39,037 bases of DNA from Candidatus Peregrinibacteria bacterium. GTDB taxonomy: Bacteria; Patescibacteriota; Gracilibacteria; UBA1369; JABINC01. The position numbers and the translations under genes were made by a program. Location of the stretch: assembly GCA_030700255.1 (NCBI GenBank), contig JAUYJN010000030.1, positions 1 to 39,037 of the forward strand, written 5' to 3'. Numbering within the stretch: the stretch's first letter is position 1; every line of letters starts with the position of its first letter. This document shows, piece after piece, positions 18,912 to 39,037 of the stretch. The notes under the pieces were generated by a model, which saw only the letters and a list, made by a program, of their open reading frames with translations, ran no database searches and was not told the DNA's origin.

Positions 18912-19024
18912 CCACAACTCGCTTTTATACTTTACAAAACATAAAAAAGCTTGCCCACTAACACAAAAAAGCGTACAAAAAAGAAAAAGCCCCTTCAAAT
19001 ATCTCGCCTAAAAGCGAGTTAGCT
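18912..19024 (+). other. Array-head attachment site, copy A (attI/attC-like)
   Basis: A 12-base arm AACTCGCTTTTA (18916-18927) is perfectly complementary to TAAAAGCGAGTT (19009-19020), with 81 bases between. The outer 7-mers CCACAAC (18912-18918) and GTTAGCT (19018-19024) sit where integron R'' and R' cores would be. The same architecture and a homologous interior (shared TTTAT.CTTT, AAAAGCT.GCCCA) occur at 36212-36322. The stems of the two copies differ with compensating changes. It directly precedes the restriction-modification cassette. Confidence 0.65.
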
Positions 19025-19090
19025 GAAATATTCCTTTTCTTTTTTGGGCTATCGCCCAATTGTTTTAAAAAATTTTCAAATTTCTTTTTC
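19018..19090. repeat. Left terminal inverted repeat of the restriction cassette
   Basis: It starts with the core GTTAGCTGA and continues about 64 bases into the cassette. It is the near-perfect inverse of 25089-25159. Inside it the hairpin TTGGGC-TATC-GCCCAA (19044-19059) occupies the place of CCGAC-TATC-GTCGG in the right copy: the stems differ but both fold. Confidence 0.85.
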
Positions 19091-19097
19091 TTTTTTA

Positions 19098-19150
19098 TAA
19101 GGGGAAATATGGTGTTTTCTCCGCTCCCGCTGGTCGCTCCGAAAACCTTA
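19098..19150. repeat. Hairpin just inside the left repeat
   Basis: GTTTTC (19114-19119) pairs with GAAAAC (19141-19146), inside ATAAGG/CCTTAT outer arms. Its AGGGGAA motif and its position match the inverse of the tandem hairpins at 24964-25087, so it may be a worn counterpart that extends the terminal repeats. The match is partial. Confidence 0.4.
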
Positions 19151-19173
19151 TTTTATAACTAACGCTAACGCGC

Positions 19174-19179
19174 TATAAT
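19174..19179 (+). promoter_or_regulatory. Likely -10 element for the restriction-modification operon
   Basis: A perfect TATAAT lies 28 bases before the ATG of the methyltransferase gene. No good -35 hexamer is present at the proper distance (TTTTAT at 19151), so the promoter may be weak or need an activator. Confidence 0.4.
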
Positions 19180-19207
19180 ACAGCGGAAGTCAAACCAAAA
19201 TTAACTT

Positions 19208-20923
19208 ATGCCTACATTAAACTGGATCGGAAAAGACGCAGTAATAAACCACGACAAAGAGGTTCCTTTTCGGTTACTCAAAAAAGTTAAGTCATCTTCT
19301 GTAGGCAATTCTCAAAATTTGATTATCCATGGCGACAATCTTGAGGCATTGAAAGCTATAATGCCTTTTTATATCGGAAAGGTAAAATGCGTCTATATTG
19401 ATCCCCCATATAATACGGGAAATGAGGGCTGGGTTTATAACGACAAAGTAAATTCTCCGAAAATCAAAAAATGGCTTGGGAAAGTAGTGGGTAGAGATTC
19501 AGAAGATCTGTGTCGTCATGACAAATGGCTTTGTATGATGTATCCACGAATTAAACTCATCCACAGCCTATTAAGCGATGACGGACTTGCAATTATTCAC
19601 ATTGATGAAAATGAAGTTACTCATCTAAAAATCCTAATGGATGAGATATTTGGCGAAAGTAATGATCTTGGAACTATTGTTTGGGATAAACGGAACCCAA
19701 AAGGTGATTCTCAAAAAGTTTCCTACCAACACGAAAGTATAATCCTTTTCGCGAAAAACATTGAAAACATCAGGGGCAGTTTCTCAGTGAAAAAAGCAAA
19801 TGCAAAAGAAATTATCAAGAAAGCAAATAATCTATTTTCCAAATTGGGTAAAAAGGATTTACCAGAAGACATTAAAAAATTAGCTAAAGAGTATGATTTC
19901 CCCAAAGAATTTTTAGAAAAACAGTCTAAAATCTTCACTTTACAAGACATAAATAACGAGTTCCAAGTCTGGATGAAGAAACAAGATTTTACAGGGGGAG
20001 AGAAAGCCTACCGATTCATTGATCCAAAGGGAAAAGTTTATCGTGGAGTTTCAATGGCATGGCCAAACAAGAGCAAAGCTCCTGATGATTATTGGATACC
20101 TTTGATTCATCCAAAAACAAAAAAAGAATGCCCCTTGCCGTCACGAGGTTGGCGCTATCCTAGTTCAACAATGCAACAGCTTTTGGAGCAAGGATATATT
20201 CTTTTCGGAGAAGACCACAAGAAACAACCAGAGCGAAAATACTTGCTTGAAGAAAATATGAGTCAAAACCTTACTTCATTGATTAGCTTTGGAGGTAGTG
20301 ATGATTCTTTGCAAAAACAATTAGGTTATCAATTTGAAAATCCAAAACCAGTAACCTTTGCGGCCGACCTTTTAGATATTTTTACAAACAAAAATGACAT
20401 TATCCTAGACTCGTTTGCTGGCTCTGGCACAACAGCACACGCAGTTTTAAAGCTGAACAAATCGGATGAAGGAAGCAGAAAATTTGTACTAATAGAAATG
20501 GACGATAAAGTTGCAAAAGACATCACAGCCGAACGAGTAAAGCGAGCAATCAAACAATACGATTATAAAGACGGTTTTGAATATTGCGAACTCAGCAAAC
20601 CGCTTTTTGACGAAGAAGGTCAAATCGAAGACACATGCGACTTCGATCAATTCGCAACCTACATTTACTTTACCGAAACGCAAACAAATATTGACCCTGC
20701 CAAAGTATCGGCAAATTATATCGGCGAATACGCGGAAACTGAGTATTATCTGATTTACAAAGAAAAAGGCGAAAATGTGTTGAACAAATCTTTCTTGAAA
20801 AAACTAAAAAAGAACGACAGTAAAAAGGTTATTTACGCCGATAAGTGTTTGCTCGACGAAGCCACACTTGGAAAACAGAATATCGTCTTTAAGCAAATCC
20901 CTTACGAAGTTAAAATTTACTAA
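19208..20923 (+). CDS. mod: Type III restriction-modification system methyltransferase (Mod)
   Basis: The 571-residue protein methylates adenine N6 in the recognition site and supplies sequence specificity to the restriction complex. The catalytic motif IDPPYNTG (DPPY at 65-68) precedes the AdoMet-binding DSFAGSGTTAH (about 401-411), the order of beta-class enzymes typical of Mod subunits. The central region between the motifs (about 150-380) is the likely target-recognition domain. It starts a four-gene run with spacings of 2, 2 and -4 bases, which must be one operon. It lies inside an unusually large cassette bounded by inverted repeats. Confidence 0.93.
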   Translation: MPTLNWIGKDAVINHDKEVPFRLLKKVKSSSVGNSQNLIIHGDNLEALKAIMPFYIGKVKCVYIDPPYNTGNEGWVYNDKVNSPKIKKWLGKVVGRDSEDLCRHDKWLCMMYPRIKLIHSLLSDDGLAIIHIDENEVTHLKILMDEIFGESNDLGTIVWDKRNPKGDSQKVSYQHESIILFAKNIENIRGSFSVKKANAKEIIKKANNLFSKLGKKDLPEDIKKLAKEYDFPKEFLEKQSKIFTLQDINNEFQVWMKKQDFTGGEKAYRFIDPKGKVYRGVSMAWPNKSKAPDDYWIPLIHPKTKKECPLPSRGWRYPSSTMQQLLEQGYILFGEDHKKQPERKYLLEENMSQNLTSLISFGGSDDSLQKQLGYQFENPKPVTFAADLLDIFTNKNDIILDSFAGSGTTAHAVLKLNKSDEGSRKFVLIEMDDKVAKDITAERVKRAIKQYDYKDGFEYCELSKPLFDEEGQIEDTCDFDQFATYIYFTETQTNIDPAKVSANYIGEYAETEYYLIYKEKGENVLNKSFLKKLKKNDSKKVIYADKCLLDEATLGKQNIVFKQIPYEVKIY

Positions 20924-20925
20924 TT

Positions 20926-23202
20926 ATGGAACTCAAAAATTACCAAGTTAAAGCAATTGAAATCATCAACAGTTACCTGTTTTTCCTAGATCAGGTAGGG
21001 ACTGCTAAACGTGCATATATAGAGCTTAAAGAGGATGTTTATCACTCAGAATATTTTAATGATGTTCCATTTGTCTGCGTAAAAATACCTACAGGCGGAG
21101 GTAAAACACTTGTAGGCTGCCATGCCCTCAACGAAATCATGCGCTCTGCACTCAAACACAAAATGGATAGAGGCATAGTGATGTGGTTTGTTCCGTCCGA
21201 AGCGATTAAGTCTCAAACTCTCAAAAAATTTAAAGATCGCAACGATTGGCACAGACAAGTCTTAGACGAAGCGTTTCAAAACGGCGTGCGAATTTTTTCA
21301 AACGAGGAAGCTCTGAGAATTAGAAAGGAGGATGTACAGGACAATCTTTGTATTATCATTTCCAGCTTAGAAGCTTTCCGTAAAGAGAAAACACTACAAA
21401 AGAAATACAAGGTTTATCAGGAAAACGGCGCACTCTTGAGCCATTTTGAAAATCTGGACGGCCGAGATGATCTGGAAAAAGACGAGGAAGGCACAATTAT
21501 AAACTCGCTCGCAAATGTCATCCGTATGAGTAATCCCCTTGTCGTAATTGATGAGGGACACAAAACAAAAACTGAACTCTCAATAGATTTTCTAAACAGC
21601 CTCAACCCAAGTTTTGTCATTGAATACACCGCAACACCACGCGCCGGCAGTAACATTTTAGTAGATATTTCCCCTGCCGAACTCAAAGATGAGCAAATGG
21701 TGAAAATTCCGCTTGTACTCGAAAGCTCTGCCCAATGGCAAAACGCTGTTGCTCGCGGTCTTGAAAAACGAGCTGAACTTGAAAAAGACAGTAAAAAAAA
21801 TACTGGAGATTATATCCGCCCTATTGCCCTAATCCAAGCTCAGCCAAAGAGTAAAACGCAAAACAATGTAACGGTTGAGCAGATCAAAGAATATTTGCTT
21901 TCCGCCAAAATCTCCGAGGAGGAAATCGCAATCAAAACATCAGACCGAAACGATTTAGAGGGCATAGATTTATTTAACAAGAAATGCAAAATCCGCTACA
22001 TCATAACTGTTAGCGCGCTTGCTGAGGGTTGGGATTGTTCTTTTGCCTATGTTTTGATCTCCGTTGCCAATGTAGGGGCAAAAATAGCCGTTGAACAGAT
22101 CATCGGACGTATTATCCGCATGCCTTACGCAAAGAGAAAGAAGAACGAAGCATTAAACCGCTCCTATATTTTTGCTTCCGCTAAAAATTTCAATGAAGCC
22201 GCTAGCAATATCATTTCAGGACTTGAGAGAAATGGCTACAGCAAGCTGGATCTAATTGGTTCTTCATCAAACGGCGATACAGCCAAAGACCCGAAAGAAG
22301 TAAATCGAGCAGTGAAAAAGGATTTTGCCATTCCGATGATGAGTTTAGAGAACGAAAAACTAACTTTTGAAGAACTGATCGGCGAAGATTTTGAACTCGC
22401 GAAACAAAACGCCGAATTTGACTTTGAAATTCATTACGACAATGACGGTCGAGCCATAATTGATATTGAGGACGACAACAAGTGGCATAAAGGCAAACAG
22501 CAAATTCTCAATCTTACATACAGAGACAAAAACTTTTCAAAACAGGAATTGGTGCAATGGCTTGATAAAAAGCTCCGTTTCACCCTGCTTGATAAACCGA
22601 ACAAGGTAAAATTCATTGATAAAGCCGTTGATTATCAGCTAAAGCAGAAATCTTTAGCCGAGCTTTCTGTTAATCGTTATCTATTCCTTGATCGTCTGAA
22701 TGAAGCCATAAACAGCGTGCTAGAAGCATACGCAAAAAAGCGTTTTGTTGAGTTTGTAGCCAAAAAGAAAATTACGACCAAGACTTTTGATAATTTTCCA
22801 GAAACTATCACACTCAAAGAGGAAATACCGCAAGAGTTCAATAAAAATTACTACGAGAAAATCGACAAGCTGAACAAAGAGGAATTGAGTTTTGTCGAAC
22901 GCCTAGACCTTGATAGCCTGCCGAATGTTGCATTTTGGGTTCGCAATCGTGAAAAACAAGACCCCTTCTTTATTCAAGGCTGGAAGAAAGGCAAATTTTA
23001 CCCCGACTTTGTCGCGCTCACCAAAAAAGGCAACATCGTTGCCCTTGAATGGAAAGGCGAAGACAGAATCAGCAACGAAGACACGGGATACAAAGTTGAA
23101 ATTGCCGACGAATGGGTAAAGCTCGGCAAGAGCAAACTCCATTTCTTCTTGGTTCACAATGGGAATGTGGAGGAGGTTTTGACGAATTTAAAGACACTTT
23201 AA
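20926..23202 (+). CDS. res: Type III restriction enzyme subunit (Res)
   Basis: The 758-residue ATP-dependent nuclease works with Mod to cut unmethylated DNA. Superfamily 2 helicase motifs are clear: Walker A PTGGGKT (55-61), DEGH (209-212), EYTATPRAG soon after, and QIIGRIIRMPYA as motif VI. The C-terminus carries a PD-(D/E)xK-like nuclease: FYPDFVALTKKG then ALEWKG, about 45-65 residues before the end. All motifs are intact. The gene starts 2 bases after mod. The length is short for Res (often 850-1000), but no domain appears lost. Confidence 0.93.
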   Translation: MELKNYQVKAIEIINSYLFFLDQVGTAKRAYIELKEDVYHSEYFNDVPFVCVKIPTGGGKTLVGCHALNEIMRSALKHKMDRGIVMWFVPSEAIKSQTLKKFKDRNDWHRQVLDEAFQNGVRIFSNEEALRIRKEDVQDNLCIIISSLEAFRKEKTLQKKYKVYQENGALLSHFENLDGRDDLEKDEEGTIINSLANVIRMSNPLVVIDEGHKTKTELSIDFLNSLNPSFVIEYTATPRAGSNILVDISPAELKDEQMVKIPLVLESSAQWQNAVARGLEKRAELEKDSKKNTGDYIRPIALIQAQPKSKTQNNVTVEQIKEYLLSAKISEEEIAIKTSDRNDLEGIDLFNKKCKIRYIITVSALAEGWDCSFAYVLISVANVGAKIAVEQIIGRIIRMPYAKRKKNEALNRSYIFASAKNFNEAASNIISGLERNGYSKLDLIGSSSNGDTAKDPKEVNRAVKKDFAIPMMSLENEKLTFEELIGEDFELAKQNAEFDFEIHYDNDGRAIIDIEDDNKWHKGKQQILNLTYRDKNFSKQELVQWLDKKLRFTLLDKPNKVKFIDKAVDYQLKQKSLAELSVNRYLFLDRLNEAINSVLEAYAKKRFVEFVAKKKITTKTFDNFPETITLKEEIPQEFNKNYYEKIDKLNKEELSFVERLDLDSLPNVAFWVRNREKQDPFFIQGWKKGKFYPDFVALTKKGNIVALEWKGEDRISNEDTGYKVEIADEWVKLGKSKLHFFLVHNGNVEEVLTNLKTL

Positions 23203-23204
23203 TT

Positions 23205-24188
23205 ATGGATGAGGAAAAAATAACACAAATTTTCAATTTAGAATTTCCCCCATATATAGAAGAACTCAAAATTGGAGATTACATATTCAAAAGAGTAAAA
23301 AACTACAAAGAAGCCTTTGATGGCATGATGTGCTTAGTAAATTCATCAGGCAGCGAATTCAACACGCAAATTAAAGTCGGTTCTCACCAAATCACAGCAA
23401 TTGTAGAAATTCCTCAAAAAGAAAAAGGGTGTATTTTGCCGTTTGGAAACACAAAATTAACACAGCTTGACGATGTTTTATTCTTACTAACGATTTTTAC
23501 AGACAGGAATGTTTTTAAAAAGGACTGGGAAGATAGCGATAACATTGCGATAATTAGCGACCACAGAATACACCAGTATGGCGGTCAACTAGCCTGTTCA
23601 ATCAAATATGACTCTCGGTGGAAACATGTAGATACAGGAGAGTTAAAAACCGAGACGGAAATGAAAGGCATTCCGGTTTTTGATTATCACCAAATTAACA
23701 TTGGATTTGAAAATACCATAAACAAAGTACTCGATCTTATTTCAAGCAAAAAATGGCAAAATGAATATGAAGGTGGGTATTTTTTATTTCTGTTTAAATC
23801 TGCCATGCAAAGGCAAATTATTGAAACCTCCTTTATTTCATGCTGGACAATATGGGAACATATTTTTGCAATCAAAAATCGTAAATGGCTTGATAATAAA
23901 GCAATTGAGCAAATGAGTGGCGATAAGAAAATAGCCTTCATTTTGAATGAATATTTTTTGAAAAACATTGATGAAACGGCTAGAAAAAATATTCAGAAAA
24001 TAAACAAAACAAGGAATCGCCTAATTCATTTCGGAAAGAAAACAGAGCAGATTGACTATGATGAAATGGTAATGTTCATCAGGCTAACAGAGCAATTGAT
24101 AGCTATTATTTTCGAGCTATCCCCTTCAAATATATTCAATTCATTTGAAGCCTTGGACAAATTCTTAGCTGGCAAAAAGAAATCATGA
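23205..24188 (+). CDS. HEPN-motif protein linked to the type III system (gene 3)
   Basis: A longer frame overlaps res, but ATG 23205, two bases after the res stop, gives 327 residues and is the sensible start. The N-terminal 170 residues are beta-rich and unfamiliar. The C-terminal part is helical and ends in INKTRNRLIHFGKK. R270-N-x3-H275 there is the Rx4-6H motif of HEPN ribonucleases. The architecture recalls ApeA-type abortive-infection proteins, but identity is not shown. In this operon a role as an RNA-cutting backup, triggered when restriction fails or is attacked, is an inference. Confidence 0.65.
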   Translation: MDEEKITQIFNLEFPPYIEELKIGDYIFKRVKNYKEAFDGMMCLVNSSGSEFNTQIKVGSHQITAIVEIPQKEKGCILPFGNTKLTQLDDVLFLLTIFTDRNVFKKDWEDSDNIAIISDHRIHQYGGQLACSIKYDSRWKHVDTGELKTETEMKGIPVFDYHQINIGFENTINKVLDLISSKKWQNEYEGGYFLFLFKSAMQRQIIETSFISCWTIWEHIFAIKNRKWLDNKAIEQMSGDKKIAFILNEYFLKNIDETARKNIQKINKTRNRLIHFGKKTEQIDYDEMVMFIRLTEQLIAIIFELSPSNIFNSFEALDKFLAGKKKS

Positions 24189-24958
24189 GGAAAATAACCG
24201 CACAAATCAAAGAAGCAACATACGAGAATGTCGTCGTAGACTGCCCCAAGTGCAAAATTGAGTGTATTTTTAACAGAGTCTCTGATCTTAAAAGTATAAT
24301 GCCAATTTCAGGGCAAAATCTCAAATGTGAAACATGCGAAACAACCTTTTGGGCAACCGGCGATTTGGTGACAGCTGCAAAATACAGATGGTTTATAGAT
24401 GATCTGCCCATTTTGATGAAAAGCAAAAAATACGGTCTTTACATTCTAGCCTTGTGCCAAGCTTGTGAAGCATTTATGCACCAAGCAATAATTAACAAAC
24501 TTATTGACTATAATACTGATTATCGTGATCAGGAGGGCCATTTTTCCCATAATAAGCAAGTTGGTGCAGAAGCTTACAATCAAATTTACGAAGAGTTTTG
24601 CAATAGCAAAATCAGTGACATTACAAAAAATGGGCTGAAGAATAAAACCCAATACAAAAAGACCACGTTTGACAATTTGCGAGCACTTTTTCTACATATT
24701 TTTGATGATGAGAGAACAAACAAGTTAGCAACGTTAAAAAAACTCAAAGAAGACAAAAGAGCTAAAAGCTTTTGCGTGTTAGAAAAAACCACAATTAATA
24801 AAACAAGAAATGATACTATCCATAAAAACGCATATAGACCTAGTTTTTGCGATATACAAGAGTATGATGAGCTAATTAATAGTTTATACTGGCTTGGGGT
24901 ATATCTCGACGTAAATGATTCCACCCATTTCCTAAATAAGAGGATTAAACCTAAATAG
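24185..24958 (+). CDS. Zinc-ribbon HEPN-motif protein linked to the type III system (gene 4)
   Basis: The 257-residue product begins with four cysteines in CPKC (20-23) and CETC (48-51) pairs, a likely zinc ribbon. A helical domain follows whose INKTRNDTIHKNAY holds R208-N-x3-H213, again the HEPN Rx4-6H form. The motif shares INKTRN..IH with gene 3, so the two may be distant paralogues or a heteromeric pair. Its ATG overlaps the gene 3 stop by 4 bases (ATGA), a sign of tight co-translation. Possible roles are an RNase effector or its partner; I know no named family with this layout. Confidence 0.6.
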   Translation: MRKITAQIKEATYENVVVDCPKCKIECIFNRVSDLKSIMPISGQNLKCETCETTFWATGDLVTAAKYRWFIDDLPILMKSKKYGLYILALCQACEAFMHQAIINKLIDYNTDYRDQEGHFSHNKQVGAEAYNQIYEEFCNSKISDITKNGLKNKTQYKKTTFDNLRALFLHIFDDERTNKLATLKKLKEDKRAKSFCVLEKTTINKTRNDTIHKNAYRPSFCDIQEYDELINSLYWLGVYLDVNDSTHFLNKRIKPK

Positions 24959-24963
24959 AATAA

Positions 24964-25087
24964 GGTGTTTGAGGTCGGGGCAATTCACCCCTTTTGTTCC
25001 CCTCTTGCCCCTCCCTCAAACCATAAATAGGTGTTTTGGGTGGCGGTCATTCACCCCTTTTGTTCCCCTCTGCCCGCCACCCAAAAC
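24964..25087. repeat. Two tandem hairpins with an identical 23-base loop region
   Basis: Hairpin 1 pairs 24967-24983 with 25005-25021 (15 of 17 pairs); hairpin 2 pairs 25033-25046 with 25074-25087 (14 of 14). The stems have different sequences (GTTTGAGG... against GTTTTGGGTGGCGG), yet the loops share 23 identical bases (24983-25005 and 25049-25071, containing CACCCCTTTTGTTCCCC). They follow gene 4 by only a few bases and abut the right terminal repeat. No T-run follows, so they are not simple terminators. Confidence 0.85.
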
Positions 25088-25088
25088 G

Positions 25089-25159
25089 GAAAAAGAAATT
25101 TGAAAATTTTTTAAAACAACCGACTATCGTCGGAAAAGAAAAGGAATACATCAGCTAAC
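25089..25159. repeat. Right terminal inverted repeat of the restriction cassette
   Basis: It is the inverse of 19018-19090, ending in TCAGCTAAC, the exact complement of the left core GTTAGCTGA. It contains the hairpin CCGAC-TATC-GTCGG (25120-25133), whose stem differs from that of the left copy but still pairs. Confidence 0.85.
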
Positions 25160-25279
25160 ACTGCGTATGCGGTTACGGCTTGCTCCGTACCTCCGCAAGC
25201 CTCCACCAATATTTGCCAGTGGTAAGCACTTCGTGCAATTATACCACTGGCAAACATCGCATATTCTGGAACGTTAGCC
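25153..25279 (+). other. attC-like site of the restriction cassette
   Basis: Outer cores AGCTAAC (25153-25159) and GTTAGCC (25273-25279) bound a 127-base imperfect palindrome. Inner arms GCGTATGCGG and CGCATAT pair. A central stem TTTGCCAGTGGTA/TACCACTGGCAAA caps it. The CATATT...AACATCGCA...GAACGTT framework recurs in the sites at 26788 and 36710. Confidence 0.75.
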
Positions 25280-25311
25280 GGCAGATTCGTAAGAAATTAC
25301 GAGAGTTGCTA

Positions 25312-25361: not shown

Positions 25362-25997
25362 ATGGTACTAGAAAAAATCAAATCCATCGTTTCCCCAGTT
25401 GTCTTAGGAGCTGTAATTTCCATAATAGCTCCAGCATGTGCAACAACTCAACATAACACACGAACCAGAATTGAATCAGCAATTGCAGCCGAAGGAGGTA
25501 TTGAACAAATGGAATTCGAGAATTTTAGTGTTCGCTCTCTCCAATATCTAGAATTTCAATCAAGAGAACTACAAGATGACAAAGAAAGGTGTAATGCAAA
25601 TGTACTTTTTGACGGCGGGCAACTCCCAACAAAATGGCCAAAAGAAAAAGACGGACTATTTACCTTTCGCTTATTAGAAGATGAATTCCCGACTTGCCGC
25701 CCAGCAGATGAAGAAACAATAACAAGAAAGCCACTTATTGCTATTCAATTAACTGAGGGGTTGGTAACCAGAGTGTGGGAAAGAGCTAAAATTGTCGATG
25801 GTGAACCTAACGGAAAAAGTTATTTTAAATTACTTGCTATTCTGGGACCATCAGAGGAGAAACAACCATGGGGCGGACTTATAAGAAATAATTGGGGAAG
25901 CGATGGATTATTTATGTATGATCCAGCAGTAGCCCCACATCTCGCCACAATCGATAGAATGTTGACGGCACATTTAGCAGATTTAGGAGTAGAATAG
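25362..25997 (+). CDS. Cassette-borne exported protein of unknown function
   Basis: The 211-residue product opens with a short charged segment and a hydrophobic stretch (VVLGAVISIIAPACATT, about 13-29). This could be a signal peptide or a weak lipoprotein signal with Cys26; the residue three before the Cys is not ideal for a lipobox. The mature part has two further cysteines (ERCNAN and FPTCRP) and no motif I recognise. It has its own promoter. As a single-gene cassette of unknown function it is typical of integron cargo. Confidence 0.7.
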   Translation: MVLEKIKSIVSPVVLGAVISIIAPACATTQHNTRTRIESAIAAEGGIEQMEFENFSVRSLQYLEFQSRELQDDKERCNANVLFDGGQLPTKWPKEKDGLFTFRLLEDEFPTCRPADEETITRKPLIAIQLTEGLVTRVWERAKIVDGEPNGKSYFKLLAILGPSEEKQPWGGLIRNNWGSDGLFMYDPAVAPHLATIDRMLTAHLADLGVE

Positions 25998-26019
25998 GAC
26001 AGCTTTTGAGGCTTTCATC

Positions 26020-26139
26020 GTACAACAGAGACTTTGCGGTACCGTTCGCCTGCGGCTCACTCCACCAAAATTGGGCGGAGGTAAGGCATGTAGCCATATT
26101 GTATCGCCACCCAACTTCGCAAAGTCCCTGATGTTGTGC
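26020..26139 (+). other. attC-like site of the second cassette
   Basis: GTACAAC (26020-26026) and GTTGTGC (26133-26139) bound 120 bases. ACTTTGCGG pairs with CGCAAAGT, and an inner TTGGGCGG/CCACCCAA pairing is present. The left core of this cassette (GTTAGCC) does not complement GTACAAC, unlike the other cassettes. Confidence 0.6.
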
Positions 26140-26169
26140 GCCATTCTTTAAAACAGCTAAAATAAAAAC

Positions 26170-26793
26170 ATGAGAGTATTCGCAAACGGATTATTAACAG
26201 GTCTGATACTTCAAACGGCAATTGGCCCTGTTTTCTTTTTCATCATTAACCTTGCACTACAAAGGTCGCTTTACGATGGGCTTGTTGCCGTAGCGGCAGT
26301 TACACTCGTAGACTATTTTTACATATCACTCGCAATTCTCGGCATTGGGAAATTGCTCGAAAAAAAGAAAATTAAAAAGGCTTTTGGGATTATCAGCTCG
26401 CTCGTTTTAATTATTATCGGCATTATCATAATCAAAAACATTCCGACAGAAATAGGCACACCAGAACTAACAACAAATTCATCAAGTCTTTTAACAAGCT
26501 TTTCTTCCGTCTTTTTTCTCACAATTTCCAACCCCATGACAATCGTGTTTTTTACAGGAGTCTTTTCTGCCAAAGCAATCGAATACAATTACACAAAACA
26601 TCAACTCTGGATTTTTGGCCTATCGGTAGGACTAGCAACTTTCCTATTTATGGGCTCATCAGTAATTGTATTCTCATTGCTAAAGAAACCCGTGCCAATT
26701 TTGCTAATTCAAACATTAAACGTAATAGTAGGATGTTTGCTTATTTTATACGGAGCAATCCGTTTAAAACCTGTTTTAAAGAACAGCGCCTAA
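26170..26793 (+). CDS. LysE/RhtB-family amino acid exporter, cassette-borne
   Basis: The 207-residue membrane protein has about six hydrophobic helices. It carries the LysE-type N-terminus GLLTGLILQTAIGPVFFFIINLALQ, with the Gly-Pro conserved in the family, and NPMTIVFFTGVFSA in the middle. Members export basic or other amino acids and some toxic analogues. The substrate cannot be assigned. The stop codon lies inside the R'' core of the following attC-like site, so the cassette is packed to the last base. Its ends form a 24-base inverted repeat (26133-26156 against 26771-26794). Confidence 0.85.
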   Translation: MRVFANGLLTGLILQTAIGPVFFFIINLALQRSLYDGLVAVAAVTLVDYFYISLAILGIGKLLEKKKIKKAFGIISSLVLIIIGIIIIKNIPTEIGTPELTTNSSSLLTSFSSVFFLTISNPMTIVFFTGVFSAKAIEYNYTKHQLWIFGLSVGLATFLFMGSSVIVFSLLKKPVPILLIQTLNVIVGCLLILYGAIRLKPVLKNSA

Positions 26794-26930
26794 CAGCGTA
26801 TAGCCGGTTCGGCACTTTTCAGGCTGGCTTTCAGCACAGCCAAAAGTGCCTCTCCCATATTTGCTGGTGATGGCTCACTCCGTTCGCTATTATATCACCA
26901 GCAAACATCGCAAAGTGCGAAACGTTAGAC
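26788..26930 (+). other. attC-like site of the LysE cassette
   Basis: GCCTAAC (26788-26794) and GTTAGAC (26924-26930) both fit the integron consensus RYYYAAC/GTTRRRY exactly. The 143-base interior has a capped stem TTTGCTGGTGAT/ATCACCAGCAAA and a second stem GGCACTTTT/AAAAGTGCC. Confidence 0.8.
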
Positions 26931-27008
26931 CAAATGTCAAAATACTTACCCCTTGCTTTCTATATTGGATTATGTTTTAATTACCATCTATATAATTAAC
27001 ATTATATT

Positions 27009-35058: not shown

Positions 35059-35964
35059 TCAAAATGGACTTTTGACTCCACACAGAGCGCTTTCAGTAAC
35101 TTTTGTATATATAAGTGTGGTTCTCAAATCCTTATGTCCAAGGAATTTTTGAATATACGAAATACTAACTCCACTTTCCAAAAGATGCGTCGCAAAACTA
35201 TGTCGAAGCGAATGAAAGGACGCATTTTTCATAACCCCTGAGTTCTCCAAACTTTTTTTAAATATCTTTTGCAAAGTTGCAACACTTAACTTGCCACCCC
35301 TCCGACTTTCAAATAAATACGTCATCCGATTTCGCGAATTCACTCCAGCGCACTTCCACCTAACAATATCCGCAATCTCAATCAACAATTTATCAGGTAA
35401 AATCGTGAATCTATCGCGCCCACCTTTTGCATTGCGCACATGAATTAATTTCCTTTCAAAATCGAGGTCACACAATTGCAATTTCGTCACCTCAGAAACA
35501 CGAAGACCAGCCCCATAAGCAAGACTAATAATCAATTTATGTTTAGGATTTTTTGTAACCTCTATGCATTTCAAAATCTCATTTTTGCTCAAAACAACAG
35601 GTAGGCGCTTTACTTTTTTAGCAAAACTAACACGAATTTTACGCTTCGATTTCGCCACACGTTTATAAAAAAACTTAATCGCGCAGAGGTAAACATTTAG
35701 CGTCGAAGACGCCACCCCTCTGTCCGCTTTATATTTCAAAAACATTTTAATATGAGCATAAGAAGGCGTTTTCAGCATTCCACAATATTTAATTGTAGAA
35801 AAATATTCTTCCAAACAATGGGTATAAGCTTCGATCGTCCGCTTACTAAAACCGGTGATCGCAAGTTCATTTGAAAAATAATGCCATTCACGAACCATAC
35901 GTTTAACGTAAACAGGCCCTTGCCCACTCTCATTAAGCCTTTCAAAAAAATCTTCCGTAGCCAT
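35059..35964 (-). CDS. Tyrosine recombinase, likely the cassette integrase
   Basis: The 301-residue enzyme has an N-terminal SAM-like DNA-binding domain (about 20-105) and a full catalytic domain: Arg155 (GLRVSE), Lys180, His251 and Arg254 (HSLRHSF), His277 (LGHKD) and Tyr286 (LIYTKV). It ends GVKSPF, as many Xer/IntI-like enzymes do. The extra segment that IntI integrases carry between the Lys and HxxR motifs is absent, so by sequence it is Xer-like. Yet it is transcribed away from a cassette array with an attI-like site about 250 bases upstream, the standard integron layout. A plain XerC/D role is the alternative. Confidence 0.85.
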   Translation of the reverse strand: MATEDFFERLNESGQGPVYVKRMVREWHYFSNELAITGFSKRTIEAYTHCLEEYFSTIKYCGMLKTPSYAHIKMFLKYKADRGVASSTLNVYLCAIKFFYKRVAKSKRKIRVSFAKKVKRLPVVLSKNEILKCIEVTKNPKHKLIISLAYGAGLRVSEVTKLQLCDLDFERKLIHVRNAKGGRDRFTILPDKLLIEIADIVRWKCAGVNSRNRMTYLFESRRGGKLSVATLQKIFKKSLENSGVMKNASFHSLRHSFATHLLESGVSISYIQKFLGHKDLRTTLIYTKVTESALCGVKSPF

Positions 35965-36211
35965 AAATAATTGTTAATAAATATTCCAAATACGCTGATC
36001 ACATATACCAAACGAAATTAAAATTTCTTTAAAATCCAAAAGCGCATCTTAAAAAAAAACTCTAAAAAAACATCTCGCTTACCCGAACTTAGCTATCAAT
36101 ATTAAAACTAATTTACAATAAAAAAACGACCAAACGGCTACCACAAGCCATCCTCTGAAAGGAGACTGTGTACCGCAAGTCACTCCACAACTATGTAATA
36201 GCAAAGTATTA
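35965..36211. other. Region between recombinase gene and attachment site
   Basis: About 250 AT-rich bases with no gene. It must hold the recombinase promoter on the minus strand, and possibly a promoter reading into the cassettes. I could not fix either by eye. A-runs at 36052-36070 are present. Confidence 0.4.
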
Positions 36212-36322
36212 TTACAACTCAGGTTTATCCTTTTCGCAACCCAAAAAGCTCGCCCAAACCAAGCAAACAAGCCAAACTAAACTTCCAACCTCAAATCTAT
36301 TCCACCTAAACCTGAGTTAAGT
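36212..36322 (+). other. Array-head attachment site, copy B (attI candidate)
   Basis: AACTCAGGTTTA (36216-36227) is perfectly complementary to TAAACCTGAGTT (36307-36318), with 79 bases between. Outer 7-mers are TTACAAC (36212-36218) and GTTAAGT (36316-36322), the latter fitting GTTRRRY exactly. It is homologous along its length to 18912-19024. Its place between the recombinase and the first cassette is where attI belongs, but the folded form is more attC-like than classical attI sites. Confidence 0.7.
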
Positions 36323-36340
36323 GAAATAAATTTTACCTTT

Positions 36341-36691
36341 ATGAAACCAAACGCATACATTCTAGATTGGACAATGAATGAATACAGCCGTCTGCTTGCT
36401 CAGCTAAAAGAGCAGGGTTTTGATTTTCAGAAGGAAGAAGGTGAAGAACACGTGCGTGTCGATGTCCCATTTTTTCGCTGGGAAGAGTTTGCTAATTTAG
36501 TTCAGCCACAACTAAATGCACCTTACAATTACGTGGACATCAAATATCCAGAGGAAAACAAACTCATCATTATTTTCGGCGCAAAGAGGTTTGTAATCAC
36601 TAACAAAGAAGAAAATGAGGCCGCGAAAAAATGGGCCATCGACTCAGGTTTACCAACGGCGCAAGCAGACTGGTCTAATTGGTTTAAGTAA
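36341..36691 (+). CDS. Unknown 116-residue protein, first cassette
   Basis: The start ATG follows the core GTTAAGTGA by 16 bases. The product is soluble, rich in Glu, Asn and Trp, with no signal peptide and no motif I know. It might be a small alpha/beta protein (KLIIIFGAKRFVITN forms two likely strands). First position next to attI would make it the most recently gained and best expressed cassette if the array follows integron rules. The cassette ends form a 22-base inverted repeat (36316-36337 and 36695-36716, 20 of 22). Confidence 0.6.
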   Translation: MKPNAYILDWTMNEYSRLLAQLKEQGFDFQKEEGEEHVRVDVPFFRWEEFANLVQPQLNAPYNYVDIKYPEENKLIIIFGAKRFVITNKEENEAAKKWAIDSGLPTAQADWSNWFK

Positions 36692-36709
36692 GACGGTAAA
36701 ATTTACATC

Positions 36710-36841
36710 ACTTAACACGCAGTATGCGGCTACAGTTTGCTGCGTTTCACTCCGCAAACTTCCGCCCATATTCACTGGCTGTACCGCACTTCGTGCGATA
36801 TTATACAGCCAGTGAACATCGCATACTGCGGAACGTTATAT
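36710..36841 (+). other. attC-like site of the first cassette
   Basis: ACTTAAC (36710-36716) and GTTATAT (36835-36841) bound 132 bases. GCAGTATGCGG pairs with CGCATACTGC, and TTCACTGGCTGTA pairs with TACAGCCAGTGAA in the capped centre. ACTTAAC is the exact complement of the cassette's own left core GTTAAGT. Confidence 0.8.
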
Positions 36842-36845
36842 GAAA

Positions 36846-36891
36846 TTTAAAAAAACAAACCTTTTAAATATTTGAAAATTTTAGCAATTTT
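36846..36891. repeat. Left terminal inverted repeat of the kinase cassette
   Basis: The stretch TTTAAAAAAACAAACC, then an AT-rich middle, then AAATTTTAGCAATTTTA matches the inverse of 37755-37799. It ends at the base before the kinase ATG, so one repeat doubles as the leader of the gene. Confidence 0.7.
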
Positions 36892-37758
36892 ATGAAAGCG
36901 GAATTCTATATACAGAAGATCAAAAATTATTTTCCTCAAATAAAGTGGAAAAATATCCGTACTCTCACTCATGGCTTTGACCACGTTATTATTGTTCTTG
37001 ATGAGAAAATCATTTTTCGCTTTCCCAAAGACAAAGAATACAAAGCAGAGTTTGAGAATGAAATACAATTGCTCCACTACCTGAAAAAGAAAGTCCGAGT
37101 CGGAATTCCAGAGTACAACTACATTTCCAAAGACAAATCAATTGCTGGATATGATATGGTAGGTGGCCGAGAGCTTACTGCTTCACGTTTTCGTCGCCTC
37201 TCCGCTTCGGAAAAAGATACCATAGCCAAACAACTCGCTGAATTTATCTCAACACTTCATGCCACGCCGAAGTCAATCATTACCAAATACAACGTCCGAA
37301 CTGAAAATCAAGAAGAAGAATACAAAATCCTAGTCCGCGACGTTAAAAAACTTCTTTTTCCTCGGCTCAGAAAACGAGAAATCCAAGCCATCGAGGAATA
37401 CTTTGCTGAACTAAAAGACGCTCTCGACCACAAGTATTCAAATGCGCTCACTCATAATGACTTAGCATGGGCACACATCCTTTGGGATAGCAAGAATAAG
37501 CAAGTTAATATTATTGATTTTTCTGACCGCGCATTTGGAGATCCAGCAATTGATTTTAGCGGTTTATTTGAGTATGGCACCAAATTCGTAGAAAAAGTTT
37601 TCAAATTGTACTCTGGAAAAAAAGATAAACATATGTTAAAGAGGTCGCAATTGTATTTCAAAAGAATTCCGCTTTCTATTATGAAAAATTCTATGCAGGG
37701 ACGCCCAGTCACCTTTGAACAGGGTTACAGAAAGTTCAAGAAAACATTCAAAGTATAA
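36892..37758 (+). CDS. APH-like phosphotransferase, cassette-borne
   Basis: The 288-residue kinase-fold protein has an N-lobe with IIFRFPKDKEYKAEFENEIQLLHYL. The catalytic loop is HNDLAWAHIL (about 188-197), where Asp190 would be the catalytic base. The metal-binding IIDFSDRAFGDPAIDF (about 207-222) follows. The usual Asn of the HxDxxxxN loop is His here, a variant found in some APH subfamilies. Relatives phosphorylate aminoglycosides, macrolides or small alcohols such as choline and homoserine. Resistance is possible, given the cassette setting, but the substrate is not known. The stop codon lies in the right terminal repeat. Confidence 0.78.
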   Translation: MKAEFYIQKIKNYFPQIKWKNIRTLTHGFDHVIIVLDEKIIFRFPKDKEYKAEFENEIQLLHYLKKKVRVGIPEYNYISKDKSIAGYDMVGGRELTASRFRRLSASEKDTIAKQLAEFISTLHATPKSIITKYNVRTENQEEEYKILVRDVKKLLFPRLRKREIQAIEEYFAELKDALDHKYSNALTHNDLAWAHILWDSKNKQVNIIDFSDRAFGDPAIDFSGLFEYGTKFVEKVFKLYSGKKDKHMLKRSQLYFKRIPLSIMKNSMQGRPVTFEQGYRKFKKTFKV

Positions 37759-37844
37759 AATTGCTAAAATTTGATTTATGATCGGTTTGTTTTTTCAAAC
37801 TCAAGGGGACGCTGCGCTTTCGCTTCACTGCGTTACGCTCACCC
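37755..37844. repeat. Right terminal repeat of the kinase cassette plus a palindromic insert
   Basis: 37755-37799 is the inverse of 36846-36891. Between it and the core TCATATAAC (37845-37853) about 40 bases are inserted, GC-rich and nearly palindromic (GCTGCGCTTTCGCTTCACTG and on). The left end has no counterpart, so this looks like a later insertion. Confidence 0.55.
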
Positions 37845-37846
37845 TC

Positions 37847-37946
37847 ATATAACAAGGGCTATACGGTTCGGCACTCGGCTCGTGCTTCACCCAAATTTTT
37901 CTTCCGCTACGCTCCAGAAAAACTTCGTATATCCCTAACATTATGT
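37847..37946 (+). other. attC-like site of the kinase cassette
   Basis: ATATAAC (37847-37853) and ATTATGT (37940-37946) bound 100 bases; the right core has A in place of the first G of GTT. GGGCTATACGG pairs loosely with CGTATATCCC. ATATAAC exactly complements the cassette's left core GTTATAT. Confidence 0.6.
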
Positions 37947-37992
37947 GAAATACTATGAAATTTCTCTAATACGCTTTAGAATTTTTTTGGCG
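37940..37992. repeat. Left terminal inverted repeat of the PsbP-like cassette
   Basis: It runs from the core through GAAATTTCTCTAATACGCTT to TTTGGCGG and matches the inverse of 38641-38694 with few mismatches over about 53 bases. Confidence 0.85.
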
Positions 37993-38049
37993 GATGCACG
38001 GGTCGAATAACTCAAATATAAATTTAATTTATCAATAATCAATAAAATT

Positions 38050-38637
38050 ATGAATCAAAAAAACCTCATTGCAATTTTAGGAGTTGCGGTCGTAATTTTG
38101 CTCGGCACAACCATATATTTCGCAACAATCAGCGATGTTAGCCAGCCAGCGCCCATAACACAACCCGCTAGCGATACTACGAATTTGCAGACATATACAA
38201 GCGATAATCTGGGAATTAGCTTTCAATATCCAAAAGGCTGGTTTGTTAGGGAAGATAAGGCTATTGGTCGTGTATATATAGAAAACACTCAAGAATATGG
38301 GTACAAATGGGATATGCCAGCAGATTTTCAACGGGTTTGGATTTCAACCTGGGCACAAGAAGTCTCCGCAGAAAAAGAAAATAATCTAAAAAATGGCAAA
38401 CCCTATATGACAGAAATTTATACTTCTGTATCTATATCAACTATAAGTAACAATGGCATTGTGATAAATACGTATGAATATGAAGCTGATGGCGGTCCTA
38501 CGCTCGCAGCTTTCTGGACAGACAAATCCGGGAAAAGATATTACGCAACTAATTCAACAGAAATTGATGATGTAAATCAACAAAAAATGGTTTCCAATCT
38601 GAAAAAAATTCTTTCGACCCTTAAATTCACAAAATAA
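38050..38637 (+). CDS. PsbP-like lipid- or membrane-anchored protein, cassette-borne
   Basis: The 195-residue protein has one N-terminal hydrophobic helix (LIAILGVAVVILLGTTIYFA, about 5-24), so it is anchored or secreted. The domain YTSDNLGISFQYPKGWFV...through KILSTLKFTK resembles PsbP/MOG1-like domains, with the F-YP-GW motif. Such domains are abundant in these bacteria and their function is unknown. It is an intact relative of the start-less gene at 27253-27789 in array 1. Terminal repeats of about 53 bases flank the gene. Confidence 0.72.
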   Translation: MNQKNLIAILGVAVVILLGTTIYFATISDVSQPAPITQPASDTTNLQTYTSDNLGISFQYPKGWFVREDKAIGRVYIENTQEYGYKWDMPADFQRVWISTWAQEVSAEKENNLKNGKPYMTEIYTSVSISTISNNGIVINTYEYEADGGPTLAAFWTDKSGKRYYATNSTEIDDVNQQKMVSNLKKILSTLKFTK

Positions 38638-38640
38638 ATT

Positions 38641-38694
38641 CGCCAAAAAAAATTCTAAAGCGTATTAAAGAAATTTCTGGCTACATCACATAAC
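38641..38694. repeat. Right terminal inverted repeat of the PsbP-like cassette
   Basis: The inverse of 37940-37992, starting two bases after the stop codon and ending in TCACATAAC (38686-38694), which complements ATTATGTGA with one mismatch. Confidence 0.85.
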
Positions 38695-38886
38695 AGCGTG
38701 TATCTGGCTACGGAAAATTGGCGTTAATTAAATCTATATGGAGTGCCAATTTTCCTCCGACCAAAATTTCATCCCTTAGTTTGATGAAGGTTTGGGTGGA
38801 GTTCTATCAAAAAAGCGTGCGTCTAATAATAGAAGTTTATCCTGCTAAATCGGGATGAACACTTCAGATACACGCGAACGTTGTAA
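38688..38886 (+). other. attC-like site of the PsbP-like cassette (199 bases)
   Basis: ACATAAC (38688-38694) and GTTGTAA (38880-38886) are the outer cores. GCGTGTATCTGG pairs with CAGATACACGC. The site is longer than the others because of an extended interior. Confidence 0.7.
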
Positions 38887-39037
38887 AAAATTCCGCCTCG
38901 CTTCATTTTTTACAATGTGCACGAATATGCGTGGGCGGGAAAGTGGTATAATCAAACAATAGTAAGAATATCCGCGGAACTTCTTACAACAACGAATATA
39001 CGGCTAATCCGCCCAAATCTCCTCCGCTACGCTACGG
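38880..39037 (+). other. ORF-less unit and start of a further attC-like site
   Basis: The left core GTTGTAAAAAAT (38880-38891) is complementary to ATTTTTTACAA about 13 bases later. A worn attC-like stretch follows (ACGAATATGCGTGGG ... GAATATCCGCGGAAC), with no GTT at its end. TTACAAC then opens another site with CGAATATACGG, cut by the window end. A TATAAT lies at about 38946. No gene fits in the roughly 100 bases between cores, so this is an attC-only cassette, a promoter cassette or a deletion scar. Confidence 0.45.

Follow-up and report, generated by a model that had tools for sequence, protein, structure and literature searches.

Can gene cassettes be captured and shuffled by a tyrosine recombinase that lacks the segment with which known integron integrases (IntIs) grip folded attC DNA? 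The question is raised by a 39,037-nucleotide contig of Candidatus Peregrinibacteria bacterium (JAUYJN010000030.1; the whole stretch is referred to here as the window), in which an earlier note, written from the sequence alone, had described a recombinase gene of this kind beside cassettes and had offered two explanations: either a Xer-like enzyme was adopted for cassette work, or cassettes are recognised differently here, for instance by long stems. We conclude, with a probability of roughly 85%, that the locus represents a working type of integron whose integrase does without the I2/beta4-5 insert by which known IntIs hold the extrahelical bases (EHBs) of attC. Its predicted layout is that of an integron, with the integrase gene beside attI and cassettes that each end in an attC (Table 1).

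Table 1. Features of the window (bit scores of attC sites are from covariance model R1; a slash separates the halves of a core sequence)
Feature	Coordinates	Strand	Remarks
Second attI-like platform, without integrase	18951..19020	+	Promoter-like TTGCCC-N17-TACAAA, then CTCGCCTAAAAGCGA/GTT
6.2-kb cassette, restriction-modification-like	19019..25273	+	Four ORFs
ORF in 6.2-kb cassette: N6/N4 DNA methylase	19208-20923		Pfam
ORF in 6.2-kb cassette: ResIII helicase	20926-23202		Pfam
ORF in 6.2-kb cassette: HEPN_Apea protein	23112-24188		Pfam
ORF in 6.2-kb cassette: unknown	24185-24958		
attC of 6.2-kb cassette	25151..25281	+	93 bits
attC after ORF 25362-25997	26018..26141	+	75 bits
attC after LysE-type exporter ORF 26170-26793	26786..26932	+	59 bits
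Cassette integrase (tyrosine recombinase without IntI-specific insert)	35059..35964	-	301 aa
Inverted exact 12-bp copy of attI core	36216..36227	-	AACTCAGGTTTA; ~90 bp upstream of attI
attI core	36303..36322	+	Crossover between G36316 and T36317, CCACCTAAACCTGAG/TTAAGTGA
Cassette 1	36317..36835	+	ORF 36341-36691, 116 aa
attC of cassette 1	36708..36843	+	104 bits; stem 11/11
Cassette 2	36836..37940	+	ORF 36892-37758, APH/choline-kinase fold (PF01636)
attC of cassette 2	37845..37948	+	58 bits; R' core ATT, point change
Cassette 3	37941..38880	+	ORF 38050-38637, PsbP-like
attC of cassette 3	38686..38888	+	30 bits; long tip; stem 11/11
Partial attC at contig end, probably the left half of a further site	38982..39037	+	Weak: 9 bits, E 3.7

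A complete recombinase without the IntI insert

The integrase matches the Pfam Phage_integrase family (E 2.5e-37) and the SAM-like N-terminal domain SAM_4. It is a complete tyrosine recombinase: the six catalytic residues named in the earlier note (R155, K180, H251, R254, H277 and Y286) are found at exactly those positions and are kept in all 55 aligned family members. That the stretch between the catalytic Lys and the HxxR motif is too short for the IntI segment is likewise confirmed, the spacing from this Lys to the His of HxxR (K-H spacing) being 71 residues, compared with 106 in IntI1 and 16 other canonical IntIs and with 68 and 72 in E. coli XerC and XerD; at this length, the IntI-specific additional domain (I2 plus beta4-5) that lies between K and HxxR is absent. 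Across the 55 aligned family members the spacing is 62-66, except in the window enzyme, in the enzyme of a second genome, G001 (103), and in the contig-end fragment L025 (84); viral-contig loci (L193-L272) entered one tally of this spacing and no count given here. Among the IntI1 contacts to extrahelical bases described in PMC3053210 are P242, H250 and H251, together with K219, Y220 and W229, all of which fall in the stretch that is shortened here, so that the window enzyme is without them.

The profile model TIGR02249 matches the protein in two stretches, at 195 bits (cut-off 265), and the top NCBIfam score of the protein, from NF040815 (recomb_XerA_Arch), is 202.2 bits (cut-off 220). An AlphaFold2 model based on 18 sequences (pLDDT 86) has helices at 191-207 and 228-242 and neither helix nor strand listed between 207 and 228, the place of I2 and beta4-5 in IntI; the closest solved chains are the V. 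cholerae integron integrase 2a3v (E 5e-16) and then XerA 5hxy (2e-15).

The nearest relative of the window integrase, the same-genus G001 enzyme (G001:C73; L034/L076), carries a 33-aa insert at the place of the IntI insert and adjoins an attC site of the (1,4) geometry described below. We rejected the identification of this segment with the IntI insert, their resemblance being no better than that of shuffles. A Kuenenbacteria homolog (L170) in which match length suggested an insert looks frameshifted; it was kept out of the alignment and the tree and stayed among the 70 sources searched with the attC model R1.

Placement outside the housekeeping Xer and canonical IntI clades

Just two PF00589 genes are present in the genome that contains the window (G000; 97% complete at 1.37 Mb): the integrase and a second gene, on contig C25. 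A tree of 91 rows, computed with the insert columns removed, puts the C25 gene with the host Xer of the order and the window enzyme in a Patescibacteria clade (support 98/96); XerC, XerD and the order's host Xer split off from the window family (99/98), which also lies outside the clade formed by the 17 canonical IntI rows (100/99). The tree sampled every second row of the first family list, plus the window and G001, and dropped eight rows (six short fragments, one truncated archaeal row and one duplicate). Nearest kin of the window enzyme are other insert-less recombinases, several of which adjoin cassette arrays.

The phylogeny with IntI, XerC and XerD that the earlier note had proposed thus places the enzyme outside both the IntI and the XerC/D clades, and the possibility it had raised, that the gene might group with housekeeping XerC/D in a genome without a second Xer, is answered by the C25 gene, which is the host Xer. 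As a separate gene in a separate clade, the integrase is distinct from housekeeping Xer. The suggestion of a Xer-like enzyme adopted for cassette work stands as to shape, the protein being insert-less and Xer-like, and fails as to ancestry, which is not Xer. We therefore regard it as hardly credible that the gene is simply the housekeeping Xer and the neighbouring palindromes unrelated repeats: the fold and the K-H spacing are Xer-like and the XerD and XerC models score 164 and 162 bits, but these scores are far below the cut-offs of 329 and 335, the gene is patchy in its distribution, and the repeats carry a cassette scar and track the gene, as set out in the following sections.

Cassette boundaries and the position of attI

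If a cassette is a circle cut at G/TT, R'' is expected to match the R' with which its own cassette begins and not the R' that follows. Over 6 nt, R'' is the complement of its own cassette start in 30 of 43 neighbouring pairs and of the adjoining R' in 1 of 43, with mean matches of 5.49 and 3.72 of 6, respectively, and 3.43 for random (Wilcoxon 1e-7). The match is best taken as the scar of circular cassettes joined at G/TT. Window cassettes 1 and 2 match exactly between start and R'', as does cassette 3 except at its changed core base.

The same logic locates attI, since the first cassette of an array starts at a site that is not an attC. Ten loci show such a start, often resembling TTCGTATAAAAACGA/GTT, and in the window the R'' of the first cassette, TCACTTAAC, is the exact complement of GTTAAGTGA at attI. 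The arrangement reported in the earlier note, an integrase divergent to an attI-like site and cassettes, is what we find, with three attC sites beyond the attI core. Copies of this core with at most one mismatch number three in the window, against 0.17 expected; the inverted copy may be an accessory integrase site. The inverted repeat 36216-36227/36307-36318 was also considered as an attC and rejected, its one-hairpin fold being no better than shuffles (z -1.1). A check for a Pc promoter beside attI gave one weak match, no more than in shuffles. The ORF of cassette 1 has no match in Pfam or NCBIfam, and that of cassette 2 falls well short of all resistance-family cut-offs.

Three cassette starts away from the integrase share an element of ~70 bp, consisting of a promoter-like TTGNNN-N17-TACAAA followed by YTCGCCTAAAAGCGA/GTT. 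Its near-identical copies, at 19018 in the window and on contigs C2 (12225-12291) and C43 (89560-89626) of the same genome, are each followed by a cassette; the pattern occurs in 1 of 89 genomes of the order, three times, and its reversed control gives 0. These elements appear to be attI platforms that have no integrase of their own and are fed in trans. At the window platform, the R'' of the 6.2-kb cassette, TCAGCTAAC at 25151, matches GTTAGCTGA at 19018, and the exact start/R'' match is absent in two of the three later cassettes. The ends of the 6.2-kb cassette (19018-19096 and 25083-25159) form imperfect inverted repeats of ~80 bp.

Architecture of the attC sites

Finders based on complementarity alone were dropped, because their sites were indistinguishable from Markov sequence; a fixed-offset geometry scan could separate them. 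This unsupervised scan of AAC...GTT pairs and inner-stem offsets (26 loci, 285 kb) singled out one geometry, with 1 nt after AAC and 4 nt before GTT, which had 24 and 11 matches in the two orientations against ~0.5 each in Markov copies. A pairing-blind search that used sequence words only, in 36 family loci, yielded 89 left-right candidate pairs, 59 of which have 10-11 of 11 stem positions paired (3.6 expected with shuffled partners). All 59 sites are on the divergent strand and 5' of the integrase. They come from 16 of the 36 loci, each of which belongs either to the window's order or to a record named Peregrinibacteria, and in many of the site-less loci a contig end is close to the integrase gene.

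The sites share a folded structure that covaries. Variation is compensated at 10 of the 11 L-stem positions, and in an alignment of 26 sites 92% of cells are paired; cells with changes on both sides number 192 (shuffles, 59), and the named structure has a covariation score of 0.575, which falls to 0.125 or less when the structure is slid. Pairing in this alignment reaches 99% in helix L, 96% in hairpin A and 78% in helix R, the last being low because R'' matches the start of its own cassette and not the adjoining R'. Directly adjoining the L stem, 54 of 59 sites have hairpin A, which shuffled controls show in 9 of 59; its W pair is complementary in 51 of these 54, and 53 of the 59 sites are predicted to fold into a branched structure with a forked tip. 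On the bottom strand, hairpin A (e.g., window 36798-36808) has an AT-rich bulge that is conserved and may be a single-strand promoter or protein contact; this strand carries TATAAT in 31 of the 59 sites, against 2.2 expected.

The core motifs of canonical attC, RYYYAAC in R'' and GTTRRRY in R', are present, and the bottom strand folds, in line with attC features attested in PMC8946536 and PMC3053210. Two single extrahelical bases on one side (T-N6-G type), a feature of canonical attC according to PMC3053210, were not seen in these sites, whose L stems are perfect and unbulged (11/11) in 50 of 59. A covariance model, R1, built from 26 of the sites, had 0 matches in 17 canonical-IntI loci; only one of these showed a cassette link, so that a six-cassette class 1 integron is the better negative control, and there too R1 found none. 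In our reading, a typical attC of this class 1 integron has a symmetric spacer and a bulged base in L''. An Rfam search gave no match, and Patescibacteria are not listed among the clade-specific attC models of PMC8352920. The earlier suggestion that cassettes are recognised differently here, e.g., by long stems, largely holds, given an 11-bp stem and a different spacer and fork.

A further explanation is that the cassettes move as double-stranded circles and that the palindrome is kept because it serves some other end, for example as a hairpin in the transcript or as a terminator. The attI site is double stranded, and Escudero et al. (PMC4792948) state that integrons could in theory use double-stranded DNA only; still, in 54 of 59 sites the bottom strand has the better fold of the two (by a mean of 3.1 kcal), the bulge asymmetry is fixed, and the 11 covarying pairs are not needed by a double-stranded site, which together make this explanation improbable.

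Distribution and co-occurrence with attC

A profile of the family finds 76 of the 241 genomes of the class at >=187 bits, the next matches being host Xer at <=164 bits. Some of the 76 have a gene that is read through at TGA: the family integrases of G190, G196, G215, G221, G234 and others contain 4-13 in-frame TGA codons, and these genomes probably read TGA as an amino acid. Named relatives belong to Peregrinibacteria, Moranbacteria, Paceibacterota, Wolfebacteria, Magasanikbacteria, Falkowbacteria and Gracilibacteria, whereas canonical IntI is rare in the order, with the TIGR02249 cut-off passed in 1 of 89 genomes.

Sites matching R1 occur in 83 of the 241 genomes, the absences being soft because a limited number of candidates was scored per genome. 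They are present in 57 of the 76 integrase-bearing genomes and in 26 of the 165 others (odds ratio 16, p 4e-19), which leaves 19 integrase-bearing genomes without an attC match and 26 genomes with attC and no family integrase. On the family loci, R1 has 102 matches in 26 of 38 loci, training sites included; matches in other Patescibacteria phyla are weaker (23-37 bits; L116-L118), and the genome of the window has 17, six of them on contig C12. A contig end lies within 3 kb of the integrase on the 5' (array) side in 21 of 30 cases and on the 3' side in 4 of 30, an excess such as variable arrays would cause.

These counts bear on the idea that the host Xer moves the cassettes through folded or dif-like sites, as with CTXphi, while the neighbouring integrase does something else. 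To our reading the attI looks dif-like, with inverted arms around ~6 bp, and the use of a folded phage site by XerCD is among the cases described in PMC4792948. However, attI and the array abut the integrase gene, and attC tracks the integrase although Xer-type matches are near-universal in the same genomes, so we consider this idea very unlikely. In incomplete genomes, another enzyme could still be acting in trans.

Insert-less recombinases beyond Patescibacteria

Cassette arrays were sought at 82 loci by a chain test, in which a cassette start has to agree at all 6 nt with the R'' of the next attC and to coincide with the end of a previous attC-like stem; chance links average 1.5 per Markov copy of the set. 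On the integrase strand, links were found in Flavobacterium (3 in L130, 5 in L131, 5 in L145 and 2 in L159), Rufibacter (L139, 5), Saccharibacillus (L143, 2) and Patescibacteria (L122, 3). Single links, near chance level, occur in L149, L151, L152, L125, L142, L161 and the canonical L162; L151, a Methanoperedenaceae archaeon, combines its link with one R1 match of 62 bits. Outside Patescibacteria, the multi-link arrays are found on the downstream side of an insert-less recombinase with a K-H spacing of 64-65 and share its orientation, and their attC sites have an R' side 3-5 nt longer, the same asymmetry as in Patescibacteria. Just past the integrase stop, L143, L145 and L159 have an attI candidate. 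Several of these co-directional arrays are in cultured bacteria (Saccharibacillus kuerlensis, L143; Flavobacterium, L145, L130 and L131; Rufibacter, L139), which makes an insert-less cassette system testable in Flavobacterium, Saccharibacillus and Rufibacter.

Two plasmid-borne relatives, from Agathobacter (L110) and Sinorhizobium (L111), resemble the window enzyme in lacking the insert (39% and 33% identity) and differ in lying directly beside an IS91 family transposase instead of cassettes; the chain test found no cassette links at either. The label "IS91type", taken from these two members for a group of relatives outside Patescibacteria, was dropped, because several of the members whose neighbours were inspected adjoin cassette arrays.

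These relatives also bear on whether the family is ordinary IntI minus its insert, decaying or using ordinary attC sites. A clade uniting the family with IntI is not rejected (p-AU 0.56), and the RYYYAAC/GTTRRRY core motifs are common to both. Against this, the catalytic residues are intact in 55 of 55 members and the arrays look active, the sites are unlike canonical ones (R1 finds none in the six-cassette class 1 integron), and insert-less relatives in other phyla also adjoin arrays, so that absence of the insert may be the older state. We judge such insert loss unlikely, albeit the least so of the alternatives considered here, and retain the reading of a working insert-less integron. Whether it extends further is less certain: at slightly better than even odds, we suggest a second, insert-less integron type with asymmetric-bulge attC sites in Patescibacteria, Bacteroidota, Bacillota and perhaps some archaea, which predates or parallels IntI.

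Proposed mechanism and significance

Beside what can be read directly from the sequence, namely the missing insert, the covarying site architecture, the circular-cassette scar, the position of attI and the co-occurrence with the integrase, we propose the following mechanism, in which the window enzyme would be the catalyst and the attC would act as a single strand. The enzyme would join double-stranded attI, with an L box similar to TTCGNATA-N6 and then G/TT, to the folded bottom strand of the attC of a circular cassette, cut at the same G/TT core. The folded attC would offer a long R stem, a bulge of 3-4 nt on the R' side, an 11-bp L stem and a forked tip, with no pair of single EHBs. In our reading, the asymmetry of bulge and fork, instead of an EHB-binding helix, may tell the enzyme which strand and arm to cut, and the junction would be resolved by replication, by analogy with known integrons.

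If a second, insert-less integron type exists, folded-cassette recombination did not require the I2 domain. Integron integrases are recognised by the IntI-specific domain in IntegronFinder 2.0, as described in PMC9024848, and likewise in the archaeal survey of PMC9668308; surveys demanding this domain would score such systems as integrase-less attC clusters or miss them. IntI surveys and distribution are treated in PMC2426708 and PMC8618304. That the enzyme occurs in as many as 76 of the 241 genomes in a single class of tiny bacteria suggests an under-count of integrons. We found no report of insert-less integrons in literature on Patescibacteria, CPR, Parcubacteria and Peregrinibacteria, or on Flavobacterium/Paenibacillus, Bacteroidota and integron-like systems, in a search that lay outside preprints and most subscription journals. 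Escudero et al. (PMC4792948) pose a chicken-and-egg problem, namely how I2 could have been selected before attC, or attC before I2, and a cassette system without I2 and without classical extrahelical bases would be a form of the kind able to resolve it. Cassette capture and shuffling without a supposedly required part of the enzyme appear to take place in a very small, uncultured bacterium and in many of its relatives, which may show how capture can proceed without the hairpin-gripping part, on differently folded sites.

Comparison with known systems

Set against known systems, the locus has the following likenesses and differences:

(i) NF040815, a model titled 'site-specific tyrosine recombinase/integron integrase', already gives this name to some relatives at NCBI. 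The relatives L113, L118 and L143 pass its cut-off and the window enzyme lies below it; the name does not separate XerA from cassette enzymes.

(ii) XerC and XerD are alike in fold, length and K-H spacing, whereas the window enzyme belongs to a separate clade and lies beside cassette arrays.

(iii) Canonical integrons (IntI1, VchIntIA) share with the window a cassette array from a single attI, the G/TT core, the R''/R' boxes, a folded bottom strand, a divergent integrase and the closest solved fold (2a3v). The window enzyme differs in being without the I2/beta4-5 insert, and its sites differ from canonical attC in having a 1x4 spacer, a forked tip and an L stem of 11 bp that runs without interruption in 50 of 59.
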